DNA of 52,718 nucleotides from Desulfatitalea alkaliphila. Its GTDB lineage: Bacteria; Desulfobacterota; Desulfobacteria; Desulfobacterales; Desulfosarcinaceae. The DNA lies in contig NZ_JALJRB010000031.1 of assembly GCF_022968795.1 (NCBI RefSeq), forward strand, positions 1-52,718, given 5' to 3'. Both the position numbers and the translations under genes were made by a program. The notes under the pieces were generated by a model. That model was given only the letters and a program-made list of their open reading frames with translations. It had not been told where the DNA came from and searched no databases. Shown here in pieces: positions 181-36,307 of the stretch. The first letter of the stretch is position 1. Each line of letters begins with the position of its first letter.

Positions 181-2298
181 ATGACACACCTCAATCGTAC
201 CAACTGCGGCGCGCTGCGCCCGGCCGATGCAGGCCGCGATGTCACGCTGGCCGGCTGGGTCGACGCCCTGCGGGACCACGGCGAAGTGCTTTTCATCCAT
301 CTACGCGACCGCAGCGGCATCGTCCAGGTGGTCTTCACACCCGAGGCCGCCAGCCGGGCGGTTTGCGACACAGCAGCCACCCTGCGCAGTGAATTTTGCA
401 TCCGGATCGGCGGCAAAGTGGTGGCACGGGCGGACGGCACCGAGAATCCGGGCATCGCCACCGGCGCCGTCGAGGTGGTGGCCGACACCCTGACCATTCT
501 GAGCGGTTCGGCGGCCCTGCCCTTTCCCATATCGGAAAAGTCCATGGTGGTCGGCGGCGCCGTCAAGGGGGACGAACCGGTGAACGAAGAGTTGCGCCTG
601 CAGTACCGTTATCTGGACCTGCGGCGACCGACCATGCAGGACCACCTGATCAAACGCCACCGCATCGTCAAAACCATCCGCGATTTTCTGGACGATCAGG
701 GTTTCATCGAAGTGGAAACCCCCATGCTGACCAAGAGCACACCGGAAGGGGCCCGCGATTACCTGGTGCCGAGCCGGCATTTTCCGCAAAATTTCTACGC
801 CCTGCCCCAATCGCCCCAGCTGTTCAAGCAATTGCTGATGGTGAGCGGCCTGGAGCGCTACTTCCAGATCGTGCGCTGCTTCCGGGATGAGGATCTGCGC
901 CCCAACCGGCAGCCGGAGTTCACCCAGTTGGACCTGGAGGCCTCCTTCATCGACGAAGCCTTCATCTACGATTTGATGGAAGCGCTGACCGTGCGCATGT
1001 TCCAGGTCGGAGGCATCGATCTGCCGCGGCCCTTTCCCCGCATCACCTGGCTGGATGCCATGAACCGCACCGGCTCGGACCGTCCCGATCTGCGCTTCGA
1101 CATGACCTTCCGCGATGTGACCGACCTGTTCGGCGAGACCCGCTACGGCATCTTCCGCCGGATCCTCGAACGGGGCGGCTGCATCAAAGGAATCAACGTC
1201 AAGGGGCAGTCGGAGCGTTTGAGCAAGAACGTGCTGCAGAACGAATACGCCAAGGAGATCGTGCCGGGTTTCGGCGCCAAGGGCATGACCTGGATGCGGG
1301 TGATCGAAGGGGGGCTGGAGTCCAACATCGTACAGTTTTTCAGCGAGGCGGAACGCCAGGGGGTGCCGGCGCGCTTCGAGGCTCAACCGGGCGACGTGCT
1401 GCTGTTGATCGCCGACCCCTCCTGGTCCCTGGTCTGTTCCGCCCTGGGGCAATTGCGGCTCCACCTGGCCCACCGCCTGGGGCTGATTCCGCCGGACAGC
1501 TACAAACCCATGTGGGTGACCGATTTTCCCCTGTTCGATGAGACCGACGACGGCGTCACCTCCTGCCACCATCCCTTCACCATGCCGGACCGCACCGATT
1601 TCGATCCGCAGGACCAAACCGACCTGCTGGCCTTGCGCTCGCGGGCCTACGACCTGGTGATGAACGGCGAGGAGCTGGGGGGCGGCAGCATCCGCATCAA
1701 TGACATGGACCTGCAGCAGCGCATTTTCCAGGCCCTGGGTCTCAATGACGCCGAAGTGTCTGAGAAGTTCGGCTTTTTCCTCAAGGCCCTGACCTTCGGC
1801 GCCCCGCCCCACGGCGGCATCGCCCTGGGCATCGATCGGGTGGTTTCCATGATCCTGGACACCCCTTCCATCCGCGAAGTGATCGCATTCCCCAAGAACC
1901 GCAGTGCCTACTGCCCCCTGACCCAGGCGCCATCACCGGTGGCGGCGGCCCAACTGCAGGAACTGGGGCTGCTCGACCTGGGCGGCGCCTGTGATCTGCC
2001 CGGCGCCGAAGCCCGGCAGGATCCCCTGGAAAATCTCTCCTGGGTTTCGCGCATCGGCTTCGCTGAAGCCGAACGGCCGGCGCTGACGACTGCCGTGGCC
2101 GAAGCCCGCGCCTGTGCCCAACGACTCGGGAAGGAACCCGCCACCGAGGCACCGCTTTTCACCGTGGCCCCCGTCACCAACCACACCCGCCCGGGCGCCG
2201 TCGCACGGACCCACCCCTTGGCGGAAAACGGCGCGCTGCTGCAGAATGCGCCCGCCGTCAAAGGCGGCTACTTCAAAGTGGCCGCCGTACTCGATTGA
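181..2298 (+). CDS. aspS: Aspartyl-tRNA synthetase fused to GatC
   Basis: About 705 aa, roughly 110 longer than a usual bacterial AspRS. Residues 1-120 form the OB-fold anticodon domain. The class II core carries motif 2 (FRDEDLRPNRQPEFTQ, from about 234) and motif 3 (GAPPHGGIALGIDR, about 540-553), with the GAD insertion between. RDHG near residue 30 and a Gly in ADGTENP match positions reported for non-discriminating AspRS, so charging of both tRNA-Asp and tRNA-Asn is likely. The AspRS part ends near 610. Residues 614-705 match GatC from end to end: LENLSWVSRIGF, then PVTNH, and a tail LLQNAPAVKGGYFKVAAVLD like GatC's NAPDHKDGYIRVPSILD. No stop or frameshift lies between. Start 181 was chosen by alignment to the AspRS N-terminus; ATGs at 163 and upstream are possible. 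gatA-like and gatB genes follow directly. Confidence 0.93.
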   Translation: MTHLNRTNCGALRPADAGRDVTLAGWVDALRDHGEVLFIHLRDRSGIVQVVFTPEAASRAVCDTAATLRSEFCIRIGGKVVARADGTENPGIATGAVEVVADTLTILSGSAALPFPISEKSMVVGGAVKGDEPVNEELRLQYRYLDLRRPTMQDHLIKRHRIVKTIRDFLDDQGFIEVETPMLTKSTPEGARDYLVPSRHFPQNFYALPQSPQLFKQLLMVSGLERYFQIVRCFRDEDLRPNRQPEFTQLDLEASFIDEAFIYDLMEALTVRMFQVGGIDLPRPFPRITWLDAMNRTGSDRPDLRFDMTFRDVTDLFGETRYGIFRRILERGGCIKGINVKGQSERLSKNVLQNEYAKEIVPGFGAKGMTWMRVIEGGLESNIVQFFSEAERQGVPARFEAQPGDVLLLIADPSWSLVCSALGQLRLHLAHRLGLIPPDSYKPMWVTDFPLFDETDDGVTSCHHPFTMPDRTDFDPQDQTDLLALRSRAYDLVMNGEELGGGSIRINDMDLQQRIFQALGLNDAEVSEKFGFFLKALTFGAPPHGGIALGIDRVVSMILDTPSIREVIAFPKNRSAYCPLTQAPSPVAAAQLQELGLLDLGGACDLPGAEARQDPLENLSWVSRIGFAEAERPALTTAVAEARACAQRLGKEPATEAPLFTVAPVTNHTRPGAVARTHPLAENGALLQNAPAVKGGYFKVAAVLD

Positions 2299-2308
2299 GA
2301 GGTTGCGC

Positions 2309-3526
2309 ATGTCCCAAACCCATACCCAACACACGCCGGCCGTGCCGGATAACCCTGCCGCCGGACCGCTGGCCGGCAAGCGGGTGGCCCATCAACCCAA
2401 TTGGTCCGTGCGGGGCCACCTTTGCAGCGCCGGTTGCCGGGCCCTGGAAGGCTACCGGGCCCTGGAAGATGCCACCCTGATCGCCCGTCTGCAAACAGCG
2501 GGCGCCGTCCTGGCCAACCCGGCCGCCATGGCCGAGCTGGGGTTCGGTCTGCACGGCGACACCACCGTCCAACCGGTCGCCCAGGGAGCAGCCGACCTGG
2601 CCCTGGTCAACGACACCCTGGGCGAGGCGCGAGTGGCCGCCGCCGCCCACGGTATGTTCGGCTTCAAACCCAGCTATGGTCGCGTCTCGCGATGCGGCAT
2701 GATCGACCTGGTCCCCTCAATGGCGTGTCCCGGGTTCATCGCTGCCGGACCGCAAGCCATTCTGGACGCCCTTGCCGCCGTGGCCGGCCCCGACCCCGCC
2801 GACGTCGCCATGCCCGACGACTGCCGGGAGATCCCGTTCGACGCCAGGCCGTCCGACACCGATCCGTTGCAAAACGCCGGCGTGATCATCCAATCCCTGG
2901 CATCCCTGGATGGGACCGCCCGCCGCGCTTTCGAGGCCGCTTTGGCCCGCCTGGCCGCGGCGGGTGTGGCCGTTCAAGAGATCGATCTGCCCGACTACCC
3001 CCTTTTCCGCGACACCCATCAGGTCATCGCCGCCGTGGAAGCCTCATCCAGCGCCGGCAAATTCGACGGCGTGCGCTACGGCTACCGCGCGCCGACCGCC
3101 AAGCATTGGAACGAGATGTATCTGGAGACCCGCAAGTCGGCCTTCGGACCACTGCTCAAGGCACTGCTATTTCAAGGCGCCTACTTGCAGTTCGACAACT
3201 ACGCCGCCTTCGAACAGGCCGCGCGCCTGCGCCGCCGCCTTGTCGATGCCCTCGCCGGCCATTTGAAGAAGGTGGATCTGCTGGTCATGCCCACGCGCAA
3301 TCCGGCGACCGATGCGGCCACGGCCACCACCATCGCCGCCATCTACGACGCCTTCGCCTACACCCTGCCGGCCAATCTCGCCGGCTTGCCGGCCCTTCAC
3401 CTGCCCGGCCCGCAGACGACGGACGCACAAGACCCCGGCCTGCAGCTCATCGGCCGGCGCCTGGACGATACCCGTCTGCTGGCCCTCGGTGTCCGGATGG
3501 CCGATTTTGAAAAGGAGGGCCGGTAA
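2309..3526 (+). CDS. GatA-like protein lacking the amidase triad
   Basis: 405 aa against about 485 for GatA. The amidase fold is recognisable: DATLIARLQTAGAVL, GMFGFKPSYGRVSR, a C-terminal half with GVRYGYRAPT, and TLPANLAGLPALHLPGP followed by GLQLIGRRLDD. The N-terminal 50 residues of GatA are missing. GatA's catalytic Lys (IKDN) is Gln29 (VAHQPN). The GGSSGGS loop with the cis-Ser lies in a deletion of about 22 residues. The DTGGS nucleophile segment reads NDTLGE, with Glu106 at the Ser position. The frame is open with normal codon use, so this looks like a maintained protein without glutaminase activity rather than a fresh pseudogene. It begins 10 bp after the AspRS-GatC gene and ends 1 bp before gatB. 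It could be a scaffold, an ammonia-dependent partner, or part of a repurposed complex. Confidence 0.85.
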   Translation: MSQTHTQHTPAVPDNPAAGPLAGKRVAHQPNWSVRGHLCSAGCRALEGYRALEDATLIARLQTAGAVLANPAAMAELGFGLHGDTTVQPVAQGAADLALVNDTLGEARVAAAAHGMFGFKPSYGRVSRCGMIDLVPSMACPGFIAAGPQAILDALAAVAGPDPADVAMPDDCREIPFDARPSDTDPLQNAGVIIQSLASLDGTARRAFEAALARLAAAGVAVQEIDLPDYPLFRDTHQVIAAVEASSSAGKFDGVRYGYRAPTAKHWNEMYLETRKSAFGPLLKALLFQGAYLQFDNYAAFEQAARLRRRLVDALAGHLKKVDLLVMPTRNPATDAATATTIAAIYDAFAYTLPANLAGLPALHLPGPQTTDAQDPGLQLIGRRLDDTRLLALGVRMADFEKEGR

Positions 3527-3527
3527 A

Positions 3528-4961
3528 ATGGCATACGAAGCGGTCATCGGCCTTGAGATCCACGTACAGCTCAATGCCGCCACCAAACTGTTCTGCGATT
3601 GCCCCAACCGTCCGGGTGACGATCCCAACCGCAACATTTGCCCGGTCTGTCTCTGGCTGCCGGGGGTGGCACCCCAATTGAGCCGGACCGCCCTGGAAAA
3701 AGGGGTGCTGGCCTGCCTGGCCCTCAACTGCACCATCCAACCGGAAAGCGCCTTCGATCAGAAGGTGTATTACTATCCCGATCTGCCCAAGGGCTACCAG
3801 TTGTCCCAGCACCACCAGCCATTGGCGCGTGATGGCTGGGTGGAAATCATCGACGCGGACAACCAGCTCAAGCGGCTGCGCATCCATCACATCCACCTGG
3901 AGGAGGACGTGGCCAAGCTGGTGCACGAAACCGATGGCCGCACGCCCATCAGCCTGGTGGACTTCAACCGTGCCGGAACGCCGCTCATCGAAATCGTCAG
4001 CGAACCGGACATGCGCAGCCCCCATGACGCCATGGCGTACGTCAAGACCCTGCGGGCCCAACTGCGCTACACCGGCTGCGCCGAGTGCAGCCTCGAACAG
4101 GGAACGCTGCGGGTGGACGCCAACATTTCCGTGCGCCCCCGAGGCAGCGACCAGCTCAACACCAAAGTGGAGGTCAAGAACATGAACTCCATCCGCAACG
4201 TGGGCGACGCCATCGCCTATGAAATCGAACGCCAAAGCGCCTGCATGGAAAAGGGCACGCCGATCACCCTGCACACCCGCTTGTGGGACCCGGACAAACG
4301 GATGACGGTGCCCATGCGGGCCAAGTTCGAAGGCCCCTGCATCCCCGACCCGTCCGTGGCCCGCATCGTGATCGATGCACCCTGGCTTGCCGAGATCAAG
4401 CAACGCCTTCCCGAAATGCCGGCCCAAAAGATCGCGCGCTTCATCAAGGATTTCGGCCTGACCCCCGATGAAGCCGCCGCCATGACCGCCGAGCGCGAAT
4501 GGGCGACCCTTTTCGAAGCCACCTCGGACCATGGCCTGCCGCCGCGCAAAGTAGCCAACTGGATCTCCACCCGCCTGATCCCCGTGCTGCGGGAACGCCG
4601 CCAATCGTTGCAAGAGACCCGTTTGTCCGCAGACCGCTTCGCCGCCCTGCTGGACCTGCTGGAACAAGGGACGATCAACGCCCAAGCCGCAAAAGAGGTC
4701 CTGCCGCAACTGCTGGACAGCGACGATCCGCCGGAGACCATCGTCGCGCGCGGTGGCTTCGCCCAGGTCTCCGCCGGCGACGAATTGGAGGCCCTGGTGG
4801 ATCGCGTCATTGCGCAACACCCCGCCGATGTGCAAGACTTCCGTAATGGCAACCCCAAGGTGCTGGGCTTCCTGATGGGCCAGGCGATGAAGGCTTCGGG
4901 GGGCAAAGCCAATCCCAAACGGTTGAAGGAACTGTTGGGGACGAAATTGGGCGCCGCCTGA
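3528..4961 (+). CDS. gatB: GatB, Asp-tRNA(Asn)/Glu-tRNA(Gln) amidotransferase subunit B (diverged)
   Basis: 477 aa, normal length. GatB phosphorylates the tRNA-bound Asp/Glu side chain and transfers ammonia to it. Visible motifs are IGLEIHVQL at the N-terminus, the zinc cysteines FCDC and CPVC, YYYPDLPKGYQLSQ, HLEEDVAKL, DFNRAGTPLIEIVSEPD, KVEVKNMNSIRNV, and a YqeY-like tail with NPKVLGFLMGQAMKASGGKANP. The motif normally reading SKEEAHDYRYFPEPDL is replaced by AKFEGPCIPDPSV (about residues 265-280), a striking change in an almost invariant segment. An AAGGAGGGC Shine-Dalgarno lies just upstream. It is translationally close to the triad-less gatA-like gene, so the three parts AspRS-GatC, GatA-like and GatB were probably inherited as a unit. 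Confidence 0.9.
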   Translation: MAYEAVIGLEIHVQLNAATKLFCDCPNRPGDDPNRNICPVCLWLPGVAPQLSRTALEKGVLACLALNCTIQPESAFDQKVYYYPDLPKGYQLSQHHQPLARDGWVEIIDADNQLKRLRIHHIHLEEDVAKLVHETDGRTPISLVDFNRAGTPLIEIVSEPDMRSPHDAMAYVKTLRAQLRYTGCAECSLEQGTLRVDANISVRPRGSDQLNTKVEVKNMNSIRNVGDAIAYEIERQSACMEKGTPITLHTRLWDPDKRMTVPMRAKFEGPCIPDPSVARIVIDAPWLAEIKQRLPEMPAQKIARFIKDFGLTPDEAAAMTAEREWATLFEATSDHGLPPRKVANWISTRLIPVLRERRQSLQETRLSADRFAALLDLLEQGTINAQAAKEVLPQLLDSDDPPETIVARGGFAQVSAGDELEALVDRVIAQHPADVQDFRNGNPKVLGFLMGQAMKASGGKANPKRLKELLGTKLGAA

Positions 4962-6306: not shown

Positions 6307-7638
6307 ATGCTCGACTTTTCCCTCACACCCGAACAGGAAAAGCTGCAGGCCGAGGCCCGGTCTTTCGCCATGCAAGAGATTCTGCCGGTGGCCTGGTATT
6401 ATGACGAGATTGACGACACACCCCTGCCGCTGATCCGCAAAGCCTACGATAAGGGCCTGATCAACGGCGACATACCCAAGAAGTATGGCGGCAGGGGATG
6501 GGGCCTGATGGAGAGCGTCGTGGTGACCGAGGAGTTCGCCGCGGCCTGTCCCGGCCTGGCCACCTCGCTGTTCGACAACTCCCTGGGCATGGAGCCCCTG
6601 ATCCTGTGCGAAAACGAGCCTCTCAAGAAGCGGATGCTGGACCAGCTGCAGCAGGAATTCAAACTGATCTGCTTTGCCACCTCCGAGCCCACCATGGGAT
6701 CGGACGTGGCCGGGATCCGCTGTCGAGCCGAGAAAAAAGGGGATGACTACATTCTCAACGGCACCAAGTTCTGGATCACCAACGCGGGCATCGCCGATTA
6801 CATGACGATCTTCGCTACCACCGATCCCAAGGCGGGGCACGAAGGCATCGCCGCATTCCTCGTGGAACGGGAGTGGGAAGGGGTCTCCGTCGGCCGCAAA
6901 ATTCCCAAGATGGGGCAGCGGGGCTCCAACACCGCCGGCATCCATTTCGACAACGTGCGGGTGCCCGCGGAGAATGTGCTGGCGCCGCCCGGCAAGGGGT
7001 TTGTGCTGGCCATGCAGACTTTTTCGCGCACCCGGCCGGCGATCGGCGCCTTCGCCATCGGCGCCGCCCGCTCGGCCATGGAATTCGCCATCCACTACGC
7101 CAAAAAGCGCCAGGCCTTCGGCGCCGCCATCGCCGACTTCCAGGCCATCCAGCACAAGATCGCCGAGATGTATCAAAAGGTGGAAACGTCCCGCCTGCTG
7201 GTCTGGAAAGCAGCCTGGGAGGCCGACCAGGGACGTGATCCCACCATCGCCGCCTCCATCGCCAAGTTTTACGCCACGGAAGCGGCGCTGCAGGTGGCCG
7301 ACGAAGCATTGCAGGTTTTCGGCGGTTACGGCTACACCAAGATGTTTCCCATCGAAAAATTCCTGCGCGACATTCGCCTCTACCGGATCTACGAAGGCAC
7401 CAGTGAAGTACAGCGCCACATCGTCGCCGGCTACGTCCTCAACAGCTATGAGCCGGTCATGCCGCCGCTGGAAGAATTACCGCTGCACCGCGAAAAGGAT
7501 CCCATGGAAGCGGCATCCGAAGCGGGAGACAAGGAAACCGCCTGGCGCTGCCGAATGTGTGGGTATGTGCATTATGGGGAGGAAGCGCCGGAGGAGTGTC
7601 CTTATTGCTTCTTTCCGGAGAAAGCGTTTATGAAATAG
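6307..7638 (+). CDS. Acyl-CoA dehydrogenase with C-terminal rubredoxin-like domain
   Basis: 443 aa. Residues 1-390 form a standard FAD-dependent acyl-CoA dehydrogenase: CFATSEPTMGSDVAG and FWITNAGIADY in the FAD/substrate region, and RIYEGTSEVQR with Glu363 as the usual catalytic base. An acidic linker leads to a rubredoxin-like knuckle with Cys415/Cys418 (CRMC) and Cys431/Cys434 (CPYC), able to bind one iron. The fusion suggests electrons leave flavin through the built-in rubredoxin centre rather than, or as well as, through ETF. The start follows a strong GAAGGAGG site. It is the last gene of the operon; its specific acyl-CoA substrate cannot be read from the sequence. Confidence 0.92.
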   Translation: MLDFSLTPEQEKLQAEARSFAMQEILPVAWYYDEIDDTPLPLIRKAYDKGLINGDIPKKYGGRGWGLMESVVVTEEFAAACPGLATSLFDNSLGMEPLILCENEPLKKRMLDQLQQEFKLICFATSEPTMGSDVAGIRCRAEKKGDDYILNGTKFWITNAGIADYMTIFATTDPKAGHEGIAAFLVEREWEGVSVGRKIPKMGQRGSNTAGIHFDNVRVPAENVLAPPGKGFVLAMQTFSRTRPAIGAFAIGAARSAMEFAIHYAKKRQAFGAAIADFQAIQHKIAEMYQKVETSRLLVWKAAWEADQGRDPTIAASIAKFYATEAALQVADEALQVFGGYGYTKMFPIEKFLRDIRLYRIYEGTSEVQRHIVAGYVLNSYEPVMPPLEELPLHREKDPMEAASEAGDKETAWRCRMCGYVHYGEEAPEECPYCFFPEKAFMK

Positions 7639-7750
7639 TATAAAGTTTTAAGTGTTAAGTTTTAAGTTTTAAGTTTTAAGTTTTAAGTTAAGGAATGCTG
7701 TCGATTATAGGGTGTTAGAGGGAGGCGAGCGGATGGGGCTTTCCACATAT

Positions 7751-8000
7751 CGTAGGGGCACGGCATGCCGTGCCCAATAAGACCCGATCCTCCCGTAGGG
7801 GCATGGCACCCCGTGCCCAATAAGACCCGATCCTCCCGTAGGGGCATGGCACCCCGCGCCCAATAAGACCCGATCCTCCCGCAGGGGCACGGCACGCCGT
7901 GCCCAATAAGACCCGATCCTCCCGTAGGGGCACGGCATGCCGTGCCCGAGTAGCCCCGGGGATCTCGCCCGGGCACGGCATGCCGTGCCCCTACGGGTTA
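7751..8000. repeat. 43-bp tandem array of GTAGGGGCACGGC palindromes
   Basis: Five units start at 7751, 7794, 7837, 7880 and 7923 with period 43. Each has CGTAGGGGCA, a GGCAYGCCG-type palindrome centre, GTGCCC, and the spacer AATAAGACCCGATCCTCC; the fifth has a different tail. An oppositely oriented copy (GGGCACGGCATGCCGTGCCC and CCTACGGG) closes the array near 7969-8000. The constant spacer rules out CRISPR. Another copy lies at 8272-8297. Confidence 0.9.
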
Positions 8001-8199: not shown

Positions 8200-8417
8200 T
8201 GCGCTACATTGTCGGGTACCCCCGCAGGAGAACGGCGTACGCTTGCCCTTGCGGCGTGATCGGTACTACCCGGGCACGGCGTGCCGTGCCCCTACGGGGG
8301 ATGCAAGGCACGATTCGGGGAAGAACCCGTTTGCTTGATTGCCCCAACCCCCTATAATCGATAGCATTCCTTAACTTAAAACTTAACACTTAAAACTTAA
8401 AACTGCCCGATAGGGCC

Positions 8418-15001: not shown

Positions 15002-15762
<761 letters not shown>

Positions 15763-15766
<4 letters not shown>

Positions 15767-16722
15767 GACGCCCCCTCCCCGCCCCCGGACGCAGGCGCCG
15801 GATAGCGCCGCGGCCTTGGCGGCAGGATCCCTTCGGTGCGGAAGATCATCATGGCGATCATGATGGCGCCGAAAATCAGCATGCGGGCCGAGGCGAATTG
15901 CCGGAACAGCTCGGGCAGGCCCGCGATCAGAAAGGCGCCCAGGATCACCCCGGGGATGCTTCCCCGGCCGCCCAGCAGCACGATCATGAACAGGATCACC
16001 GACTCCCAGAAGTTGAACGACTCGGGGGCGATGATGGTCATCTTGGCGGCGAAGATGTTGCCGGCCATGCCGGCCCAGACGGCCCCCACCACGAAGGCGA
16101 TCAGCTTGTAGTGGGCGGTGTTGATACCGCTGCCCTCGGCGGCCGTCTCGTCTTCACGCAGATAGTTGAGGGCCCGGCCGAAACGGGAATTTTCCAGGCG
16201 GTGGAACAAAAAGACCGTAACCGCCGCGAACCCCCAAATCAGAAAGAAGAAATGCTCGGGGCGGCGGATCCGGAACCCGAATATCTCGGGGCGCGAAATA
16301 CCGAAAATGCCGTTGGAACCGCCGGTGATGCCGAAGATGTTGTTGACCAGGGCGATGCGCGTGATCTCCACCAGGCCGATGGTGACGATCAGCAGGTAGT
16401 CGCCCCGCAGGTGAATGATGGGCCGGGCGATCACCAGCGCCAGCACCCCGGCCACCAGGCCGCTGATAGGCATCAGCCACAGCACCGGGATCTGGTAGGT
16501 GGTGTTGATGATGGCCGTGGTGTAGGCCCCCATGGCGTAGAAGGCGGCATGCCCCATGTGAAACAGACCGGCATGCCCCAGAATGATGTTGAGGCTCAAT
16601 CCCAGAATGGCATAGAGCCCCACGTTGTTGAGCACGTCCACCCAGTAGGCGTTGAGAAAGAAAGGCGCCAGCAGCAGCAAGACGCAGAAGGCGGCATAGA
16701 CGACCGGGCGATAATCTTTCAT
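15763..16722 (-). CDS. livM: Branched-chain-type ABC transporter permease LivM
   Basis: 319 aa inner-membrane permease, with about eight to ten hydrophobic segments. Family marks are LSLNIILGHAGLFHMGHAAFYAMGAY cut here to LSLNIILGHAGLFHMGHAAF, and LNYLREDETAAEGSGIN near residue 195, the coupling-helix region that docks to LivG/LivF. The C-terminal tail is short and Pro/Gly-rich. It overlaps both livH (4 bp) and livG (4 bp), so the three are translationally coupled. Confidence 0.95.
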
Positions 16723-17624
16723 ACCTTCTCCGCGACCCGCTCACCGAGCAGTCCGGTGGGCCGAACGATGAGAATGGCGATGAGTACGATGAAGGTGATG
16801 GCATCCTTCCAGGCGATGGAGAGATAGGCCGCCCCCATGGCCTCGATCACCCCCAGCAGCAGCCCCCCCACCATGGCGCCGGGGATGTTGCCGATGCCCC
16901 CCAGGATGGCGGCGGTGAAGGCCTTTAAACCGTACATCCAGCCCATGGTGAAGTTGATCTGGCCGTAGTAGAGCCCCACCATCAGTCCGGCCGCGCCGCC
17001 CAGGGCCGGCCCGATCAGAAAAACGATCATGATCACCCGGTCCACGTTGATACCCATCAGCTTGGCGGCCCGCTGATCGATGGCCGCCGCGCGGATGGCC
17101 GTACCGATGCGGGTCTTCTGGATGAACAAATAGAGGGCCACCATCATCAACACGGAGGTCAGCAGCACCAACAGCCGCACCAATGGTACTTCGACCCCCA
17201 GAAGGGAGACGACGTTCTTGGGCAGGATGTCATGGGGATAGACTTTGTAGCGGGCGCCGTAGATCAGCATGAGGGCGTTTTGAAAAAAGATCGACGCCCC
17301 CATGGCCGATACCACGGCGGAAAGCCGATGGGCCTGGCGCAGGGGCCGGTAGGCCACCCGTTCGAGCACGGCGCCCACCACGGCCACCAGGCCCATCACC
17401 ATCAAGGCCAACACGATCACCACCCCCAACGGCCCCAGGAAACGGGTGAGGCCGAAGGCGGTCAACAGGGTCAAGCCGAGGTAGGCGCCAATGGCGAACA
17501 GATCGCCGTGGGCGAAGTTGATCAGCTTGAGCACCCCGTAGACCATGGTGTACCCGAGGGCGATCAGGGCGTAGATACTGCCCACCGCAAGGCCGTTGGT
17601 CAGCTGCTGCAGGAAGAAGTCCAA
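16719..17624 (-). CDS. livH: Branched-chain-type ABC transporter permease LivH
   Basis: 301 aa permease. The N-terminal LTNGLAVGSIYALIALGYTM and YGVLKLINFAHGDLFAIGAY are diagnostic of LivH, as are AIRAAAIDQRAAKLMGIN (coupling helix) and LGGIGNIPGAMVGGLLLGVIE cut to LGGIGNIPGAMVGG. It is 21 bp downstream of the binding-protein gene and forms a heterodimer with LivM. Confidence 0.96.
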   Translation of the reverse strand: MDFFLQQLTNGLAVGSIYALIALGYTMVYGVLKLINFAHGDLFAIGAYLGLTLLTAFGLTRFLGPLGVVIVLALMVMGLVAVVGAVLERVAYRPLRQAHRLSAVVSAMGASIFFQNALMLIYGARYKVYPHDILPKNVVSLLGVEVPLVRLLVLLTSVLMMVALYLFIQKTRIGTAIRAAAIDQRAAKLMGINVDRVIMIVFLIGPALGGAAGLMVGLYYGQINFTMGWMYGLKAFTAAILGGIGNIPGAMVGGLLLGVIEAMGAAYLSIAWKDAITFIVLIAILIVRPTGLLGERVAEKV

Positions 17625-17645
17625 GGTGGAAGGTTCCTTCTTCGT

Positions 17646-18767
17646 CTATGGCAGCATGACGAACTTGCCTTCTGCATTCACCTCGTAAACCCGGTACAGG
17701 TCGCCCACCCGATCACCCTTCTCGTCGAAGGAGATCTCGCCGGTCAGGCCGGGGAAGTCTTGCATCTCATTTTTCAGGTAGGCCACGATTTTATCGCGAT
17801 CGGTGCTGTCGGTCGCCTCGATGGCTTTGGTAATGACCCGGAAACCGTCACCGGCCAACACCGCCCAAACCGAACCGGGCTCGGCATTGTACTTGTTGCG
17901 GTAGCTCGCCATGAAGGCCTTGGCTTCAGGGGTGTCCAGATCCTGGGGCACGGGCGGGCTCAGAAAACGGTACCCGGCGGCCGCCGTCGGTCCGGCGATC
18001 TTGACCAGGTCCGGGTTGTTGGTGGCATCCCCGCCGATAAAGGGCACCGTCCAGTTCATCTCCATTTTTTGACGCAGCAAGAGCCCCGCTTCGCCGTAAT
18101 AGCCGGTGAAAAAGACCACGTCGGGGTTGGCGGCCCGCATGCGGGTCAGGATGGCGGTGTAATCGTTCTGCTGCGGGGTCAGGGCGTCGAAGAAAACAAT
18201 ATTGGCGCCGTCTTTCTGCAGCAGGGCCCGCGTTTCGTCGGCCAGCCCCTTGGCGTAGCTGGAGTTGTCGTGCAGAATGGCGATGGCCTTGAAACCACCA
18301 TCCTTCAGGGCCTTGAAACCGACCAGTCCCTGCTCATCGTCCCGCGGGCAGGTGCGCAGAAAATATGGGTTGCCCTTCTCGGTCAGTCGGATGGCAGTAG
18401 AGCCGTTGGCCACCTGGATGATGCCGGCCTCGTCGTAAATCCCCTGGGAGGCCTCGGTCACCGCCGAACCGTAGGTGCCGATGACCGCCAGGATGTTCTG
18501 GGTCGAGAGCCGCTGGGCCGCCAGGGCGGCGGTGCGCGGGTCGCCGCCGTCATCGGCGATGATCACCCGCACCTGCCGGCCGTTGATCCCGCCGGCCGCA
18601 TTGAGATCCTCGGCCAGCAACTCGACGATCTGTTTCATGTCCTGCCCCTCGCTGGCCCATGCGCCGGTCAGCGGGGCCATCAGCCCGATGCGAATCGGAT
18701 CGGCTGCCAACGCGGAACCCACCGTCAACAGTCCGATCAACAGTACCAACAGCAACATCTTTTTCAT
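17646..18767 (-). CDS. livK: Branched-chain-type ABC transporter substrate-binding protein
   Basis: 373 aa periplasmic binding protein (Peripla_BP_6 type). A signal peptide covers about residues 1-23 (MKKMLLLVLLIGLLTVGSAL, cleavage at ALA-ADP). PIRIGLMAPLTGAWASEGQD, LNAAGGINGRQVRVI and DDGGDPRTAALAAQRL are typical of the leucine/amino-acid group. The start at 18767 follows GGAGGATTCCATC; upstream codons are not homologous. First gene of the operon livKHMGF. The ligand is probably a branched-chain or other hydrophobic amino acid, but related proteins bind other carboxylates. Confidence 0.94.
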   Translation of the reverse strand: MKKMLLLVLLIGLLTVGSALAADPIRIGLMAPLTGAWASEGQDMKQIVELLAEDLNAAGGINGRQVRVIIADDGGDPRTAALAAQRLSTQNILAVIGTYGSAVTEASQGIYDEAGIIQVANGSTAIRLTEKGNPYFLRTCPRDDEQGLVGFKALKDGGFKAIAILHDNSSYAKGLADETRALLQKDGANIVFFDALTPQQNDYTAILTRMRAANPDVVFFTGYYGEAGLLLRQKMEMNWTVPFIGGDATNNPDLVKIAGPTAAAGYRFLSPPVPQDLDTPEAKAFMASYRNKYNAEPGSVWAVLAGDGFRVITKAIEATDSTDRDKIVAYLKNEMQDFPGLTGEISFDEKGDRVGDLYRVYEVNAEGKFVMLP

Positions 18768-18892
18768 GATGGAATCCTCCTTCAATATAGGGTTGGCCAA
18801 GCCGCTGCCGAAGGTTGCGATCCTCCCCTTCGGACAAGGCCTGCAGATCACAATACGAACGAAATTCAGGCAGTTGCCATTAAGGCAACAGG

Positions 18893-18934
18893 AGATTAGT
18901 GGAATCGGGCAGGTGTGTCAATCCTTTTGACACA
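18893..18934 (-). promoter_or_regulatory. Promoter of livKHMGF overlapped by a perfect palindrome
   Basis: TGTGTCAA (18914-18921) and TTGACACA (18927-18934) form perfect 8-bp arms with a 5-bp spacer. On the minus strand the arm contains TTGACA (18921-18916), followed after 17 bp by TAATCT (18898-18893), a reasonable sigma-70 promoter for livKHMGF. A repressor dimer bound here would cover the -35 box. The regulator is unknown. The rest of 18768-19191 shows only a second -35-like TTGACA on the plus strand (19076). Confidence 0.55.
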
Positions 18935-19075
18935 TGGCACAGGTCGACCAGTTTCGGGAATGTGGGAGGCGCCGGCCGTCCGATCCCTTCTCTATTCTTC
19001 TATCCAGGCGACATAAAAATGCAAGCACAAAATGACCCGCCTTCACTGGCTGCTGGTTGTTCATTCGCTTTTGCC

Positions 19076-19104
19076 TTGACAACCTCCTGAAGCTCCATTA
19101 ATTA
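19076..19104 (+). promoter_or_regulatory. Possible promoter of the second liv operon
   Basis: A consensus TTGACA (19076-19081) is followed after 16-17 bp by the AT-rich TTAATTA, a poor -10. It lies about 90 bp upstream of the first gene of the plus-strand transporter operon. The weak -10 leaves this tentative. Confidence 0.3.
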
Positions 19105-19191
19105 GCGCAGTTCATTCTCGTTTTTCGAATCGGCGCGGTTCGGCAGTGGCCCTTGATCTCGATATGACGATGCTCGCGAGGTGCAGTTGAA

Positions 19192-20262
19192 ATGGACATG
19201 AAGCGTTCCTATTACGAGGATATCGAACTGTTCGGCAGCGGCACGGTTCTATTTTGGGCCATCATACTGCTTGCCGGTCTCCTGGCGGCGCCCTTCTTCG
19301 CCACCCAGTACCATGTTTACCTGTTCAACCTGATCTTGGTGCACATCATCGTCGCCGTTGGGCTTAACATCCTGGTCGGGTCCACCGGCCAGATCGCCTT
19401 GGGCCACGGCGGTTTTTTCGCCATCGGCGCCTTCGTCACCGTGCTGCTGATGACCAAGCTGCAACTTCCCTTTTTCGTCGCCCTGCTGGGGTCGGCCTTC
19501 ATCGCCGCCTTCTTCGGTTTTCTGCTCGGTTTGCCCGCCCTGCGCCTGGAAGGCCCTTATTTGGCCATCGCCACCCTGGCTTTCGGCCTGGCCATCATGC
19601 ATATCATCGGTCACATGGAGCTGTTCGGCGGCCGCACCGGCCTTTCGGCGCCGCCGCTGGATATCGGCATACCGCAACTGGGCTTCAGTTGGGTGCTCCA
19701 CTCCCAGGTGAGCAAATACTACCTGATCCTGGCCATCACCGTCGGCATGGTGCTTTTCGCTATCAACATTTTGAAAACCAAGGCGGGGCGTGCCTTTGTC
19801 GCCATTCGCGACAGCGAGATCGCCGCCGAGGTGATCGGCATCAACCTGGCGGTCTACAAAACCCTCGCCTTTGCCGTCAGCGCCTTTTATGCCGGCATTG
19901 CCGGCGGCCTTTACGCCTTCGTGCTGGGTTTCTTCGATCCGTTCACCTTCAACCTGATCCTGTCGGTGATTTTCCTGGTGATGGTGGTGGTGGGCGGACT
20001 GGGCTCGGTGATGGGGGCCATCGCCGGCGCCACCTTGATCACCTACCTGATGTACGATCTGTTCAAGAACGTCGGCGAGGTGCCCGTCGTGGGCGACCTG
20101 CTGGTTTCCTTCTCGCGGCAATGGCTGACGGTCAGCGGTATCGACAACTTCAACCTGATCGCACTGGGGCTGGTGATGATCGGCATCATCATCTTCGAAC
20201 CGCTGGGCATTTTCGGCGCCTGGATCCGAGTCAAAAAATATTGGAAGACCTGGCCCTTTTGA
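19192..20262 (+). CDS. livM: Liv-type ABC transporter permease LivM (second system)
   Basis: 356 aa. Multiple membrane segments; NILVGSTGQIALGHGGFFAI is the LivM hallmark, and FVAIRDSEIAAEVIGINLAV is the coupling helix. GLGSVMGAIAGATLITYL lies near the C-terminus. It is longer than the first LivM and is the first gene of a divergent operon with the order M-H-K-G-F-ligase, unlike the K-H-M-G-F order on the other strand; the two systems are therefore not a recent tandem duplication. Confidence 0.94.
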   Translation: MDMKRSYYEDIELFGSGTVLFWAIILLAGLLAAPFFATQYHVYLFNLILVHIIVAVGLNILVGSTGQIALGHGGFFAIGAFVTVLLMTKLQLPFFVALLGSAFIAAFFGFLLGLPALRLEGPYLAIATLAFGLAIMHIIGHMELFGGRTGLSAPPLDIGIPQLGFSWVLHSQVSKYYLILAITVGMVLFAINILKTKAGRAFVAIRDSEIAAEVIGINLAVYKTLAFAVSAFYAGIAGGLYAFVLGFFDPFTFNLILSVIFLVMVVVGGLGSVMGAIAGATLITYLMYDLFKNVGEVPVVGDLLVSFSRQWLTVSGIDNFNLIALGLVMIGIIIFEPLGIFGAWIRVKKYWKTWPF

Positions 20263-20321
20263 GGGCCCGCGCAAGCCTCACTACCCAACATATTTCTAAT
20301 CGCGCAATGCATGGGGGAACG

Positions 20322-21197
20322 ATGCCGTTCGGACAGTTGTTGATCGAAGGATTGGCCATGGGGGCGTGCTACGGCCTTTTCGGATTGGCGGTGGTGATCA
20401 TCTACAAAACTTCGGAGGTGGTCAATTTCGCCGCCGGCGACATGGCCATGTTCTCCACCTTTGTCTCCTTTCATGTATTGACGGTCTACGGCGCGCCCTT
20501 TTGGGTCTCCTTTCTCGCCGCCCTGGCCTTTGCCGCACTGCTGGGGGTTTTCATCGAGTTTTTCTTTCTGCGGCCGGCCAAGAACCCGAGCCTGTTGGGT
20601 CTGATCGTGATCACCATCGGCACCCAACTGCTGCTGGCGGGCGTGGCCAGCTGGAAATGGGGCGCCGAGCAGCAAGCCTTCTCCATTCCCTTCTCCTATC
20701 AGGTGACCTACGAAATTATGCCGGGCTTCGTGATCAGTCAATGGGCCATCGCCGTGTTCATCATCGCCGCCTTGATCATGGCCTTTCTCTATTTCTTCTT
20801 CAAACACACCAAGCTGGGCACCGCCATGCGCGCTACCCAGCAGAACAAGCACGCCGCCAAGATCATGGGCATCAAGACCAACCGGGTCTTCGCCTTCGCC
20901 TGGGCCTTCAGTTCGGTCATCGGCGTCACGGCGGCGGTCCTCCTGTCCGCCCGCACCATCCTGGATCCCCAGTTCATGATGGAGCCTTTTCTGCGCGCCT
21001 TCGCCGCCGCCGTGCTGGGCGGCCTGATGAGCATCCCCGGAGTGCTCATCGGTGGCGGCATCATGGGGTTGATCGAGAACTTTTTCGGCTACGCCTGGCC
21101 CACCTGGAAACCGATCACGGCCTTCGTGGTCATCGTTCTGGTGCTCTGCATCCGCCCGGCGGGGCTTTTCGGCAAGCATTACGTCAAAAAGGTGTAA
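20322..21197 (+). CDS. livH: Liv-type ABC transporter permease LivH (second system)
   Basis: 291 aa. LIEGLAMGACYGLFGLAVVI, IYKTSEVVNFAAGDMAMFST and TAMRATQQNKHAAKIMGIKT identify LivH. ATG 20322 was chosen over ATG 20307 because GGGGGAAC precedes it. It lies 59 bp after livM. Confidence 0.94.
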   Translation: MPFGQLLIEGLAMGACYGLFGLAVVIIYKTSEVVNFAAGDMAMFSTFVSFHVLTVYGAPFWVSFLAALAFAALLGVFIEFFFLRPAKNPSLLGLIVITIGTQLLLAGVASWKWGAEQQAFSIPFSYQVTYEIMPGFVISQWAIAVFIIAALIMAFLYFFFKHTKLGTAMRATQQNKHAAKIMGIKTNRVFAFAWAFSSVIGVTAAVLLSARTILDPQFMMEPFLRAFAAAVLGGLMSIPGVLIGGGIMGLIENFFGYAWPTWKPITAFVVIVLVLCIRPAGLFGKHYVKKV

Positions 21198-21235
21198 CGG
21201 CAATGGATCAATTCACCACAAAAAGGAGAATGGCA

Positions 21236-22426
21236 ATGAAGATGAAACGCATCTTGACGGCACTGGCAGTTCCGCTGCTGGCCTTGTTCCTCCTGGCCGA
21301 TACCGGTTTTGCACAACGCGAGCGCGGCTTCGACGACAAGGAGATCCGCATCGGCCAATGGGGGCCGCAGACCGGTCCGGCCGCTCCTTGGGGCGCCGTG
21401 GCCAGGGGCAGCAAGCTGGTTTTCGACATGGTCAACGAAAAGGGCGGCATCCACGGGCGCCAGATTCGTTACTTCATCCGTGACGATCAGTACAACCCGT
21501 CCCAGACCATGGCCGGCGTGCGCGAATTGGTGGATCGCCGCGGCGTCCTGGCCTTCGTGGGCGGCGTGGGCACCGCGCCGGGCATGGCGGTGCAATCCTA
21601 CCTGCGCCAGAACGAGATCATCTGGGTGGGCGTCTGCTCCGGCGCCGAGGCCTTCCAGGACAACCCCTGGCAATGGAACATGTGGCCCTCCTATTTCGAC
21701 GACGGCAGCCTGCTGGCCAAGTTCGCCGTGGAGAACAAAGGCTACAAGAAGATCGCCCTTTTCTATCAAAATGACGATTGGGGCATGGACGCCATGAAAG
21801 GGATCAACCGCCGCCTGAAAGAGCACAACATGGAACTTGTAGCCGCGGTTCCCGTGGAACCCATCGAGCGGGATCTCTCCTCCCAGATCGCCCGGCTGCA
21901 ATCTTCCGGCGCCGAGGCGATCATCGGCATCGTGGCGCCCACCCAGGCGGCCATCGCACTGCGCACTGCGGTTTCCGTCGGTTTCCAGCCCCAGTGGTTG
22001 CACTCCTACAACCTGTGCGACTTCGCCCTGATGAACCACATCACCGACGGGCTGTGGGCAAGGGAAGGGGTGATCACCTCCGCCTTCACCGATGATCCCA
22101 ATGCCGACACCCCCCTGATGAACAGCTACCGCGAGGCCGTCAAAAAGCTCGCCCCCGAGGAGCGCTGGGGCATCTTCTACATGGCCGGCATCGTAGTGGC
22201 CGAACCTTTGGTGCATGCCCTGGAAAAGGCCGGCCCCGACCTGAGCACCGCCGCCCTGCGCGATGCCCTGGACAGCATCGCCGACTTCAAGGGCATCGGC
22301 CCCCGCATTACCTGGAGCAAAGAGAGCCATCGGCCGCCCAGGGAACTGCAGATCTGGCAGTGCGGCCCCAACGGGGAAACCATCGTGGTGCAGGACTGGA
22401 TCGAGAACGAACTGTCCATGGAGTAA
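21236..22426 (+). CDS. Liv-type ABC transporter substrate-binding protein (second system)
   Basis: 396 aa. A signal peptide (residues 1-23, ending GFAQ) precedes a Peripla_BP_6 fold: DDKEIRIGQWGPQTGPAAPW, VNEKGGIHGRQIRYFIRDDQ, then YQNDDWGMDAMKG. This subgroup (IGQWGPQTGP...) differs from the leucine-binding group and is often beside acyl- or aryl-CoA ligases, so an aromatic or aliphatic carboxylate is a plausible ligand; this is inference. Of three in-frame ATGs, 21236 has AAGGAG at ideal spacing; 21230 overlaps the site and 21203 has none. Confidence 0.9.
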   Translation: MKMKRILTALAVPLLALFLLADTGFAQRERGFDDKEIRIGQWGPQTGPAAPWGAVARGSKLVFDMVNEKGGIHGRQIRYFIRDDQYNPSQTMAGVRELVDRRGVLAFVGGVGTAPGMAVQSYLRQNEIIWVGVCSGAEAFQDNPWQWNMWPSYFDDGSLLAKFAVENKGYKKIALFYQNDDWGMDAMKGINRRLKEHNMELVAAVPVEPIERDLSSQIARLQSSGAEAIIGIVAPTQAAIALRTAVSVGFQPQWLHSYNLCDFALMNHITDGLWAREGVITSAFTDDPNADTPLMNSYREAVKKLAPEERWGIFYMAGIVVAEPLVHALEKAGPDLSTAALRDALDSIADFKGIGPRITWSKESHRPPRELQIWQCGPNGETIVVQDWIENELSME

Positions 22427-22435
22427 ATCGGCCTT

Positions 22436-22473
22436 AAGCCGGCGGGGTCTGAATCTGCTTTACCCGCCGGCTT
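22436..22473 (+). terminator. Hairpin after the binding-protein gene
   Basis: AAGCCGGCGGG (22436-22446) pairs perfectly with CCCGCCGGCTT (22463-22473), loop 16 nt. There is no T-run, so it more likely stabilises the upstream mRNA or attenuates read-through within the operon than fully terminates. This would allow more binding protein than ATPases. Confidence 0.55.
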
Positions 22474-22595
22474 GCAGCCCCGATTGCGGCGCGTTGGTAC
22501 GACAGCCGCACCAACGGGCGAACCCAAGGGTGTTTGATCAATCTCCGCGACGGCCACCGGAATCGGCGGCCGTCGCCATCGAAAGCGGTAGGTTC

Positions 22596-23374
22596 ATGGC
22601 TTTTTTCAATGTCGCCCATCTGCACATCAGCTTCGGTGGGCTCAAAGCGGTCAACAACATCAGTTTCGATGTGCAACGCAACGAGATTTTCTCCATCATC
22701 GGCCCCAACGGTTCGGGCAAGACCACCATCTTCAATCTCATCAGCGGCATCTACCGACCCGACGAGGGACGGATCGTGCTGGAGGGCGAGAACATGGTGG
22801 GCAAAACACCGGACCGCATCGCCCGCAAGGGCATCGCCCGCACTTTCCAGAACATCGAGCTGTTCGCCAATGCCACGGTGATGGACAACCTGATGCTCGG
22901 CCGTCACATCCACATGCGCACGGGCATCTTCGGCGGCGCCTTCATGTTCGGCAGCCGCTCCCGGGCGGCCCGCGAGGAGGTGGCGCACCGGGAGAAGGTA
23001 GAGCGGATCATCGACTTTCTCGAATTGCAATCGGTACGCGACCAGTTCGTCGGCGGCCTGGCCTACGGCAAACGCAAACTGGTGGAACTGGGCCGCGCCC
23101 TGGCCATGGAACCCAAGGTGATGCTGCTCGACGAGCCGTCGGCCGGAATGAACACCGAGGAGAAGGACGATCTGACCATCTGGATCAAGGACATCCGGGA
23201 CGACTTCCAGGTGACCATTTTATTGATCGAACACGATATGAACATGATCATGGGCATTTCCGACCGGGTGCTGGCCATGAACCAAGGCCGGGAGATCATC
23301 CAGGGCGCGCCCGGCGAGGTGCAACGCCACCCGGAAGTGATCAAGGCCTATCTGGGAGAGGAGGCGATCGCCTG

Positions 23375-23375
<1 letters not shown>
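22596..23375 (+). CDS. livG: Liv-type ABC transporter ATPase LivG (second system)
   Basis: 259 aa. Walker A GPNGSGKTT, ARTFQNIELFANATVMDNLM, signature region GLAYGKRKLVELGRALA, Walker B VMLLDEPSAGMN, LLIEHDMNMIMGI with the catalytic His. Its stop overlaps the next start by one base (TGATG), so translation of livF is coupled. Confidence 0.95.
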
Positions 23376-24157
<782 letters not shown>

Positions 24158-31390: not shown

Positions 31391-32527
31391 TCAGGTCGTG
31401 ATCTTGATCGCTTTGCGTGACGGTTGATGGGGGAAACCTTCCAGGCTTGAGATGTCGTCCTTGTCCCGCATGAAGGTGGGAGGGCTTTGCATGTAAAGTC
31501 CCAACAATTGTCCCACTGCCGCCAGGGAATCGAGGTGGGTGCGCTCGTTGCCGTGTGAGCCGTCCAGGCCGAAGCCGATCAGCGCGGTGCGGGTGTCGTT
31601 GCCGGCTTCCAGGGCCGAGGCTGAATCGCTGCGGTAGTAGCGGAACACATCGGTGCAGTACGGCACTTCATGGGCCTCGCACAAATCGATCAACTTGTGG
31701 CTCAAATGGTAGTCGAAGGGACCGGTCTGGTCCATCATGCAGATGGTGGTGCTGTGTTCGCTGGAGTTTTGCCCTTCGGCCACCGGTGCGTGATCGATGA
31801 CCACCATTTCCGCCACATCACCGTAGAGAATGGATGAGGCGCCGGATCCCACCTCTTCCGAGATGGTGAACAGCAGGTAGCAATCGGTGGGCAGGCGGAT
31901 CTCGCCGGACCGGATGGCCAGGGCCGTGGCCAGCAGGGTGGCGACCCCCGCCTTGTCGTCCAGGTGACGGGCGCAAACATAGCCGCCGGGGGTGATTTCG
32001 GGGGCCGCGTCGAAGGCGATGAAATCCCCAACCCTGTAGCCGACGGATTTCAAATCCGCGATGGTGTGGCACTTTTCGTCCACGCGCACTTCGACGTGGT
32101 CCCAGTCAATGGGCTGGGTGTCGACTTTGTCATTGTAGACGTGCCCGGAGGCCATCAGGGGCATCACGGTGCCGCGGGCGGCCTCGCCGTTGCTTTTGAA
32201 AATGGTGACCCGGCCCCCTTCGGCAAAACGGCTGGACCAGGTGCCCACCGGCGCCGGCGCGAGGCGGCCGTTGGGTTTGAGCATGCGGGTCATGGCGCCC
32301 AGGGTGTCCAGATGAACGCACACCGCCCGTTCCACTTTGCTGTTGCTGCCGGCCAGGCAGGCGCGAATGGCGCCGCGGCGCGTGACGCTGAACGGTATGT
32401 CCAGGTGGGTCAGCGCTTCGCCGACGTAATGGACCACCTGGTCCGAATAGCCGGAAGGGCTGGGGATGTTGAGCAGATCGATCAAGGTCTTCCGAAGGTA
32501 TTGCATGTCGATATTCACAGGAACCAT
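31391..32527 (-). CDS. M42-family peptidase of the NAGGN osmolyte system
   Basis: 378 aa. Metal ligands of the M42 (glutamyl aminopeptidase) fold are visible: AVCVHLDTLGAM, ARHLDDKAGVATLL (bridging Asp), TISEEVGSGAS (catalytic Glu-Glu) and VIDHAP. This subtype is a regular partner of the N-acetylglutaminylglutamine amide genes, where it may process or degrade the dipeptide; its precise role is not established. The start 32527 has GGAGG about 14 bp upstream; a later Met (32506) lacks one. It lies 24 bp after ngg and is last in the operon. Confidence 0.9.
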   Translation of the reverse strand: MVPVNIDMQYLRKTLIDLLNIPSPSGYSDQVVHYVGEALTHLDIPFSVTRRGAIRACLAGSNSKVERAVCVHLDTLGAMTRMLKPNGRLAPAPVGTWSSRFAEGGRVTIFKSNGEAARGTVMPLMASGHVYNDKVDTQPIDWDHVEVRVDEKCHTIADLKSVGYRVGDFIAFDAAPEITPGGYVCARHLDDKAGVATLLATALAIRSGEIRLPTDCYLLFTISEEVGSGASSILYGDVAEMVVIDHAPVAEGQNSSEHSTTICMMDQTGPFDYHLSHKLIDLCEAHEVPYCTDVFRYYRSDSASALEAGNDTRTALIGFGLDGSHGNERTHLDSLAAVGQLLGLYMQSPPTFMRDKDDISSLEGFPHQPSRKAIKITT

Positions 32528-32551
32528 GTTGAGCTGAATCGCCTCCTTTGA

Positions 32552-34303: not shown

Positions 34304-34320
34304 GGATGGCCTCCAGGAAG

Positions 34321-36093: not shown

Positions 36094-36307
36094 GTCATTT
36101 CTCCTTCCTGAGGCATCCAAGTGATTTTCGAATCCCTCGTAGAAATTCAATAATAGATGGTATCCATTTCAGCCGAACAATTCAAGGTGCGCTGCAATCG
36201 CTGACGGCACCATTGAATCCTTGACGCAGACACCGAGATTTGATTTATGTATTTTTTTTCCGCTGATCGACCATCATTACGGGGTATTGGATGCGCAGAA
36301 ACCATGA

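Follow-up and report, generated by a model that had tools for sequence, protein, structure and literature searches.

A GatA homologue without glutaminase residues encoded between an AspRS-GatC fusion and a GatB paralogue in Desulfatitalea alkaliphila

Introduction

To our knowledge, GatA is the glutaminase that feeds GatB in every known GatCAB. The locus described here lies in a window of 52,718 nucleotides, the whole stretch of DNA that was analysed (contig NZ_JALJRB010000031.1 of Desulfatitalea alkaliphila assembly GCF_022968795.1), and encodes a trio composed of an aspartyl-tRNA synthetase fused to GatC (AspRS-GatC), a GatA homologue (GatA*) and a GatB paralogue (GatB2). The trio has the same three components as GatCAB and yeast GatFAB and shares with them the GatA fold, the GatB catalytic residues and, apparently, the C-terminal segment of GatC. 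It differs from both in that GatA* lacks the glutaminase residues, the glutamine-binding Arg and Asp residues and the N-terminal part. The trio is also unlike GatCAB in the fusion of its GatC-like part to AspRS, in a conserved deletion in GatB2 and in its presence beside, not instead of, a canonical set.

The Asn transamidosome (AspRS-GatCAB-tRNA(Asn); PDB entries 3kfu and 4wj3) likewise brings AspRS and an amidotransferase together, and its GatA chains are among the best fold matches to GatA*; in the trio the operon and the fusion suggest such an association. The transamidosome differs in having a synthetase that is not covalently joined to GatC and a glutaminase that is not dead. The AspRS-GatC fusion itself is already catalogued, since the window protein matches PRK12820, 'bifunctional AspRS/GatC', along its full length (1196.1 bits over residues 14-721), although the score is below the cut-off of 1379 and the entry names a function and is silent on the accompanying GatA*. 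Passages of PMC4206432 describe an extra archaeal-type AspRS paired with GatCAB for tRNA-dependent Asn formation in Deinococcus and Thermus, and a second GatCAB in Clostridium acetobutylicum. These cases resemble the trio in supplementing the standard set with another AspRS or another GatCAB, but those passages mention no catalytically dead GatA. ATP-dependent amidation without a glutaminase is described in sections of accounts of single-domain NAD synthetase (PMC3376133) and asparagine synthetase A (PMC9437257); the glutaminase part is wholly absent from these enzymes, whereas the trio keeps a conserved inactive subunit. An open PubMed Central full-text search, which leaves subscription literature largely outside, yielded no paper describing either an AspRS-GatC fusion or a GatA with a dead glutaminase site among the titles and abstracts of the matches listed.

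Results

GatA* lacks the glutaminase triad

The coordinates of the locus are collected in Table 1. The GatA* reading frame encodes 405 residues from an ATG start to a terminal stop codon with zero internal stops, and it is separated by 10 bp from the AspRS-GatC stop and by 1 bp from the gatB start. The protein scores 171.4 bits against Pfam Amidase (cut-off 27) and 201.6 bits against the NCBIfam GatA model TIGR00132, under the equivalog cut-off of 481.1. The canonical GatA of the same genome was used as the catalytic reference (K78, cis-S154 and S177 in its own numbering). In the alignment of the two proteins, Gln29 of GatA* occupies the Lys column, the cis-Ser column is a gap left by a deleted loop, and Glu106 stands at the nucleophile Ser within the segment DTLGEAR, the counterpart of canonical DTGGSIR. 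GatA* residue 19 aligns with canonical residue 68, which means that the N-terminal part, about 67 residues, is missing. These data agree with a preliminary description of the sequence, which had claimed a GatA-like gene with a clean frame between AspRS-GatC and gatB, the loss of all three catalytic residues and the absence of the N-terminal part.

Table 1. Positions of the trio and of diagnostic segments within the window
Feature	Position	Strand	Basis
AspRS fused to GatC-like C-terminal domain	181..2298	+	PRK12820, TIGR00459 matches
GatC-like domain with C-terminal NAPxxKGxxFKVxxIL segment	1936..2298	+	hhalign
GatA*, GatA homologue without glutaminase residues	2309..3526	+	profiles, alignments, model, fold search
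Gln29 codon at catalytic Lys position	2393..2395	+	Lys in 0/81 sequences (best 80 of 377 loci plus window)
DxxGExR motif (Asp102, Gly105, Glu106, Arg108), standing for canonical GatA DTGGSIR	2612..2635	+	
GatB2, GatB paralogue that retains its catalytic residues and has a conserved 3-residue deletion	3528..4961	+	NF004012, TIGR00133

Structure prediction gave a GatA* model with a pLDDT of 91.7 and a pTM of 0.92 when 77 sequences were used, and a pLDDT of 76.9 and a pTM of 0.83 with 11 sequences. GatA chains fill ranks 1-9 of a fold search in the PDB at query TM values of 0.80-0.87, and the GatA chains of transamidosome entries 3kfu and 4wj3 match with query-normalised TM values of 0.85-0.86. 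The model confidently predicts that GatA* retains the GatA (amidase-signature) fold, in line with the earlier claim that the C-terminal fold is kept.

The losses are shared by relatives

A search of 146 relatives' genomes identified 11 close GatA* orthologues including that of the window. The other ten are 44-59% identical to it with E values of 1.5e-89 or better, and the next matches drop to 2.9e-37, where canonical GatAs start. The triad losses are common to all 11 orthologues of the order. The GTDB contig collection was then scanned using patterns that avoid the catalytic residues, which gave 377 relatives. The best 80 were kept, and counts on 80 or 81 sequences refer to these best 80 of 377 loci without or with the window; the remaining 297, which stand outside the counts, probably include canonical GatAs.

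In all 81 sequences (best 80 of 377 loci plus the window), Glu fills the nucleophile column and the cis-Ser column is a gap, and the Lys column holds Gln (64), Glu (7), His (4), Arg (4), Trp (1) or Pro (1). None of these 81 sequences has the Ser, the cis-Ser or the Lys of the triad, and 30/30 canonical GatAs have all three. The DxxGExR motif is maintained in the same 81 sequences, with Asp in 79 (Glu in 2) and Arg in 79. The 77-sequence GatA* alignment contains 30 invariant columns. Glu106, His237, Gly250, Trp267 and Gln294 are present in 80/80 GatA* loci (best 80 of 377), and their canonical counterparts are Ser, Tyr, Ala, mostly Leu (26/30) and Leu, respectively.

Selection was estimated from dN/dS. 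The pair G002-G007 (Nei-Gojobori) gave values of 0.31 for GatA*, 0.22 for GatB2 and 0.12 for AspRS-GatC, and the GatA* values of the 14 closest pairs among the best 80 of 377 loci, some of which share a member, range from 0.11 to 0.29. The trio is under purifying selection. With the same state in 81/81 sequences (best 80 of 377 plus the window) and dN/dS of 0.11-0.31, the earlier view that the loss was selected and does not reflect decay is upheld. Chance or sequencing error as the cause of the losses is ruled out by the 11/11 orthologues, the 81/81 sequences and dN/dS well below 1, and a pseudogene or frameshift reading of GatA* is rejected by the shared losses and dN/dS. Quick trees place sampled GatA* (23 sequences) and sampled GatB2 (25 sequences) each on one side of a branch with a support of 100, which is consistent with a single origin of each. 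The GatA* stem has 3.61 changes per column, and the tree program warns of long branches.

The glutamine-binding residues are also replaced

The loss extends to residues that the preliminary description had not noticed. According to passages of PMC4027206, glutamine in yeast GatFAB is held by R334 and D418, and R334 is itself held by E330. Transferred through the ExxxR motif, these sites fall on E354, R358 and D425 in the canonical GatA of the genome, and these three align with the identically numbered residues of Staphylococcus aureus chain 2df4_A. We take R358 and D425 to be the glutamine-binding residues of S. aureus GatA. The Arg-to-Asp spacing is 84 in yeast and 67 in the genome's canonical GatA, so the bacterial alignment is the basis for assigning the Asp. 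Canonical GatAs retain the Glu, Arg and Asp in 30/30 cases. Among the best 80 of 377 GatA* loci, the Arg column is Tyr (60), Phe (18) or Leu (2), the Asp column is Phe (71), Cys (5), Leu (3) or Gly (1), and the Glu column is Leu in 62/80 and Glu in 0/80; the window has Leu and Phe at the Arg and Asp columns. With both the triad and the glutamine-binding residues gone, GatA* is predicted from its sequence neither to bind glutamine nor to catalyse its hydrolysis.

The AspRS part and GatB2 keep their functional residues

The AspRS-GatC frame is open from position 133, and the ATG in Table 1 fits the length of the relatives (about 705-710 residues). The protein scores 685.8 bits against TIGR00459 (cut-off 373.85). 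Pfam tRNA-synt_2, GAD and tRNA_anti-codon are all matched, and by these matches the AspRS part has the make-up of a bacterial AspRS, with a class II core, a GAD domain and an anticodon-binding OB fold. The class II and Asp-binding motifs are conserved across 67 aligned AspRS relatives. RDHG is present in both AspRSs of the genome, and its His is presumably a mark of a non-discriminating AspRS. An hhalign comparison of 14 GatC-like tails with the genome's canonical GatC gave a probability of 77.7 and an E value of 1.9e-5 over 83 columns; a TIGR00135 search of the genome did not report the fused tail. The sequence comparison suggests a GatC part that is real but divergent.

GatB2 scores 578.6 bits against NF004012 (cut-off 338) and 498.5 bits against TIGR00133, above the equivalog cut-off of 314.8. 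Nine catalytic or tunnel-side columns and four Cys are identical in 77/77 GatB2 proteins, the sequences long enough of the 79 found in the best 80 of 377 loci, and in 24/24 canonical GatBs, which were collected with a motif filter that missed 6/30 loci and fixes two of the scored residues. The columns kept are two Lys that we take to be tunnel-side, four zinc Cys, and the Glu, His, Asn and Ser that hold ATP/Mg; the YqeY tail is also retained. Roles of the ATP/Mg residues were assigned by motif, in part from passages of PMC4027206. GatB2 differs from the 24 canonical GatBs at 26 columns that are each at least 90% conserved in both groups. The HDY of the canonical AHDYRYFP segment is deleted in 77/77 GatB2 and present in 24/24 canonical GatBs.

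The trio order is conserved and its neighbours are not

AspRS-GatC lies upstream of GatA* in 79/80 loci and GatB2 lies downstream in 79/80 (best 80 of 377). The ORF search found AspRS-GatC in 78/80 and GatB2 in 79/80, and a translated search added L095, in which the AspRS-GatC end is at a contig edge 1.7 kb before GatA*. Both missing partners are at contig ends: L118 starts 185 bases ahead of GatA* and L129 stops shortly past it. Extra DNA separates AspRS-GatC from GatA* in L103 (about 1 kb) and L095 (1.7 kb), as opposed to the tight spacing in the window. AspRS-GatC is split across two frames in L082, and GatB2 of L126 (G170 contig C133) has an in-frame TAG, its locus match ending at residue 243.

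Neighbouring genes were clustered over 84 loci: the 80 fetched, three relatives from the order and the window's opening 16 kb. The clustering covered flanks of no more than 6 kb, with many loci shorter still, and would miss a distant partner gene. No conserved biosynthetic neighbour emerged: the largest cluster beyond the trio and its shadow frames spans 9 of the 84 loci and is a HisF-like frame. A larger biosynthetic cluster around the trio is rejected within these flanks, and neither an amidase nor a glutaminase gene recurs next to it. A dedicated tRNA gene is likewise rejected, with ARAGORN reporting a tRNA in 3/83 loci, one of them tRNA-Asn. Loci were scanned for 30 of the 44 tRNA matches in the window's genome, and the sole tRNA-Asn among these 30 carries a U1-A72 pair. 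Bacterial GatCAB requires the U1-A72 pair, as stated in passages of PMC4206432.

The genome also encodes a canonical set

The window's genome is 99.68% complete. It encodes a canonical GatA with the triad (608.4 bits) and a canonical GatC (85.5 bits) on contig C12 and a canonical GatB (588.8 bits) on C45. AspRS is on C23, AsnRS on C89, LysRS on C78, GlnRS and GluRS on C1 and a second GluRS on C2; further amidases are present. The canonical aspS (G000 contig C23:240464-242479) directly adjoins a tRNA-Asn gene. The search for canonical gatCAB, asnS and glnS that had been proposed as a check thus recovered all of them, plus a separate AspRS. Two branches had been left to this search: GatA* might be the only GatA, with ammonia coming from elsewhere, or the locus might specify an additional complex with a new role. 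The former is rejected by the canonical GatA, GatB and GatC on other contigs, and since a canonical GatCAB is also encoded, the trio would form a second complex; the new role is taken up under Discussion in conditional terms.

Canonical GatA scores over its cut-off in 42/45 examined trio genomes; two others show fragments and G167 has only GatA*. At least two GatBs are found in 41/45 and at least two AspRS matches in 39/45, a count in which a gene split over contigs can appear twice. AsnRS is over the cut-off in 21/45 and not in 24, absences that are soft in draft genomes (G178 holds an AsnRS fragment). Strict dependence of the trio on AsnRS absence is not seen. The trio occurs in 3/11 genomes of the genus and in 12/297 genomes of the phylum at E<=1e-80, and is accessory and patchily distributed. 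By title, trio records from the scan are mostly from Desulfobacterota and also from Nitrospirota, Omnitrophota, Chloroflexi, Acidobacteria, Verrucomicrobia and others; those outside Desulfobacterota are mostly metagenome assemblies in which misbinning could have occurred. At least three trio records are not marked metagenomic: Desulfosarcina alkanivorans PL12 (complete chromosome), Desulfocicer vacuolatum DSM 3385 and Desulforhabdus sp. TSK. Genome G002 has two amidase matches of the same score and length about 23 kb apart (contig C3:2670282 and 2692907), probably a recent duplication.

Discussion

Judged by sequence and model, the trio combines an AspRS that keeps its Asp/ATP motifs, a GatC-like tail joined to it, a GatB2 that keeps its catalytic residues and a GatA fold without the glutamine residues. 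The trio may well be a hard-wired Asn transamidosome that performs ammonium-dependent amidation of Asp-tRNA(Asn) with GatA* as scaffold and channel, a reading on which we are evenly balanced and in which we infer the donor, the tRNA and the product. The AspRS part would charge tRNA(Asn) with Asp, the 3' end of Asp-tRNA(Asn) would move to GatB2, and GatB2 would activate the Asp beta-carboxylate with ATP. Free ammonium would supply the nitrogen, entering through or beside GatA*, and the former glutaminase pocket with its conserved Asp-Glu-Arg set (Glu106) may bind it. The outcome would be ammonium-dependent formation of Asn-tRNA(Asn) beside the ordinary glutamine-dependent GatCAB, much as other amidotransferase families have members that use ammonia.

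Free ammonium would be the simplest nitrogen source because the trio has no glutaminase. The ammonium reading draws on the loss of the triad in 81/81 sequences and of the glutamine Arg and Asp in 80/80 and the window (best 80 of 377), against 30/30 intact canonical GatAs, and on the trio order, the GatB2 ATP/Mg residues in 77/77, purifying selection and the canonical set alongside. The U1-A72 pair of tRNA-Asn, the one bacterial GatCAB needs, also favours it, and precedent argues for it by analogy. Passages of PMC4027206 report that yeast GatFAB transamidates with NH4Cl and that one truncation harming glutamine use raised the NH4Cl-driven activity, and according to parts of PMC3376133, ammonia is the sole nitrogen source in vitro for NAD synthetases that lack a glutaminase part. 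Sections of PMC4206432 describe how bacteria that have AsnRS and GlnRS can nonetheless make Asn on tRNA(Asn) through AspRS and GatCAB. Several observations weigh against the ammonium reading. The AsnRS, canonical AspRS and GatCAB of the window's genome cover Asn-tRNA, so a further route is unneeded for basic translation, and AsnRS is over the cut-off in 21/45 trio genomes. The 26 differing GatB2 columns, including the HDY loss, mean that the substrate may differ. If free ammonium sufficed, GatA* might have vanished altogether, and broken members exist (the TAG in GatB2 of G170/L126 and the split AspRS-GatC of L082).

The remodelled and conserved GatB2 segment and the GatA*-specific invariants Glu106, His237, Trp267 and Gln294 would also suit a second complex that transfers a group other than ammonia, acts on another aminoacyl-tRNA or serves an extra-translational purpose, with GatB2 activating Asp and GatA* presenting a different amine or nucleophile. 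The accessory, patchy occurrence of the trio (3/11 genus genomes, 12/297 phylum genomes at E<=1e-80) points the same way, but the loci offer neither a conserved biosynthetic neighbour (largest non-trio cluster 9/84) nor a dedicated tRNA gene (a tRNA in 3/83, one tRNA-Asn), and we consider this transfer unlikely. A role for GatA*-GatB2 without any amidation, in which they hold or check aspartyl-tRNA or regulate the AspRS of the fusion, perhaps as a spare or stress-time enzyme, fits the dN/dS values of the closest pair, in which the AspRS part (0.12) is more conserved than GatB2 (0.22) or GatA* (0.31), and the auxiliary roles of duplicated synthetases noted in passages of PMC9437257. A mere tRNA holder would have no need of the ATP/Mg residues that GatB2 keeps in 77/77, and such a role is distinctly unlikely.

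It is very unlikely that GatA* is a scaffold only and that a separate glutaminase, for instance canonical GatA or another amidase, delivers the ammonia: candidates exist, with canonical GatA over the cut-off in 42/45 trio genomes and further amidases in the window's genome, but none recurs beside the trio, and ammonia channelling between separate complexes would be unusual. That the trio is a decaying GatCAB duplicate heading to a pseudogene is scarcely credible. The lost catalytic residues, the very long GatA* stem branch (3.61 changes per column) and the isolated broken members G170 (TAG in GatB2) and L082 (split AspRS-GatC) could be read as decay, which is already contradicted by open frames, a conserved operon, 30 invariant columns over 77 sequences, a wide spread and dN/dS of 0.11-0.31 in 15 close pairs. 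A broader proposal, that the trio is a distinct aminoacyl-tRNA machine whose glutaminase subunit was remodelled about an invariant Glu so that it presents ammonium or a small amine to Asp-tRNA, yielding either ammonium-gated Asn-tRNA or a new extra-translational product, is possible though somewhat improbable.

A conserved lineage with a GatA fold, none of the glutamine-handling residues tested and a synthetase joined to GatC would naturally part tRNA-dependent amidation into its two halves. The trio offers a means of testing how GatB functions when glutamine nitrogen is not channelled to it, whether ammonium-driven tRNA-dependent asparagine synthesis is possible in anaerobes and what purpose a GatA pseudoenzyme serves. 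An automatic GatA or amidase name would predict an activity that GatA* very probably lacks.

Other features of the window

A complete N-acetylglutaminylglutamine (NAGGN) osmoprotectant operon is encoded at 31391-36150 on the minus strand; its M42 peptidase, NAGGN synthetase and NAGGN amidotransferase all score over their NCBIfam cut-offs. The amidotransferase gene is asparagine-synthetase-like and is therefore not to be mistaken for AsnB. An acyl-CoA dehydrogenase homologue at 6307-7638 on the plus strand, for which all family matches are below cut-off, has a C-terminal tail with two CxxC pairs that presumably resembles a rubredoxin domain. A 43/86 bp tandem repeat (4.6 or 2.8 copies) occupies 7751-7990 between the acyl-CoA dehydrogenase and nitrilase-like genes, and runs of a 7-bp repeat are found at 7643-7689, 8373-8404 and the contig start (1-30). 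Two gene sets on opposite strands at 15002-24157 are like branched-chain amino acid ABC transporters and are followed by an acyl-CoA ligase-like gene, as read from the translations.
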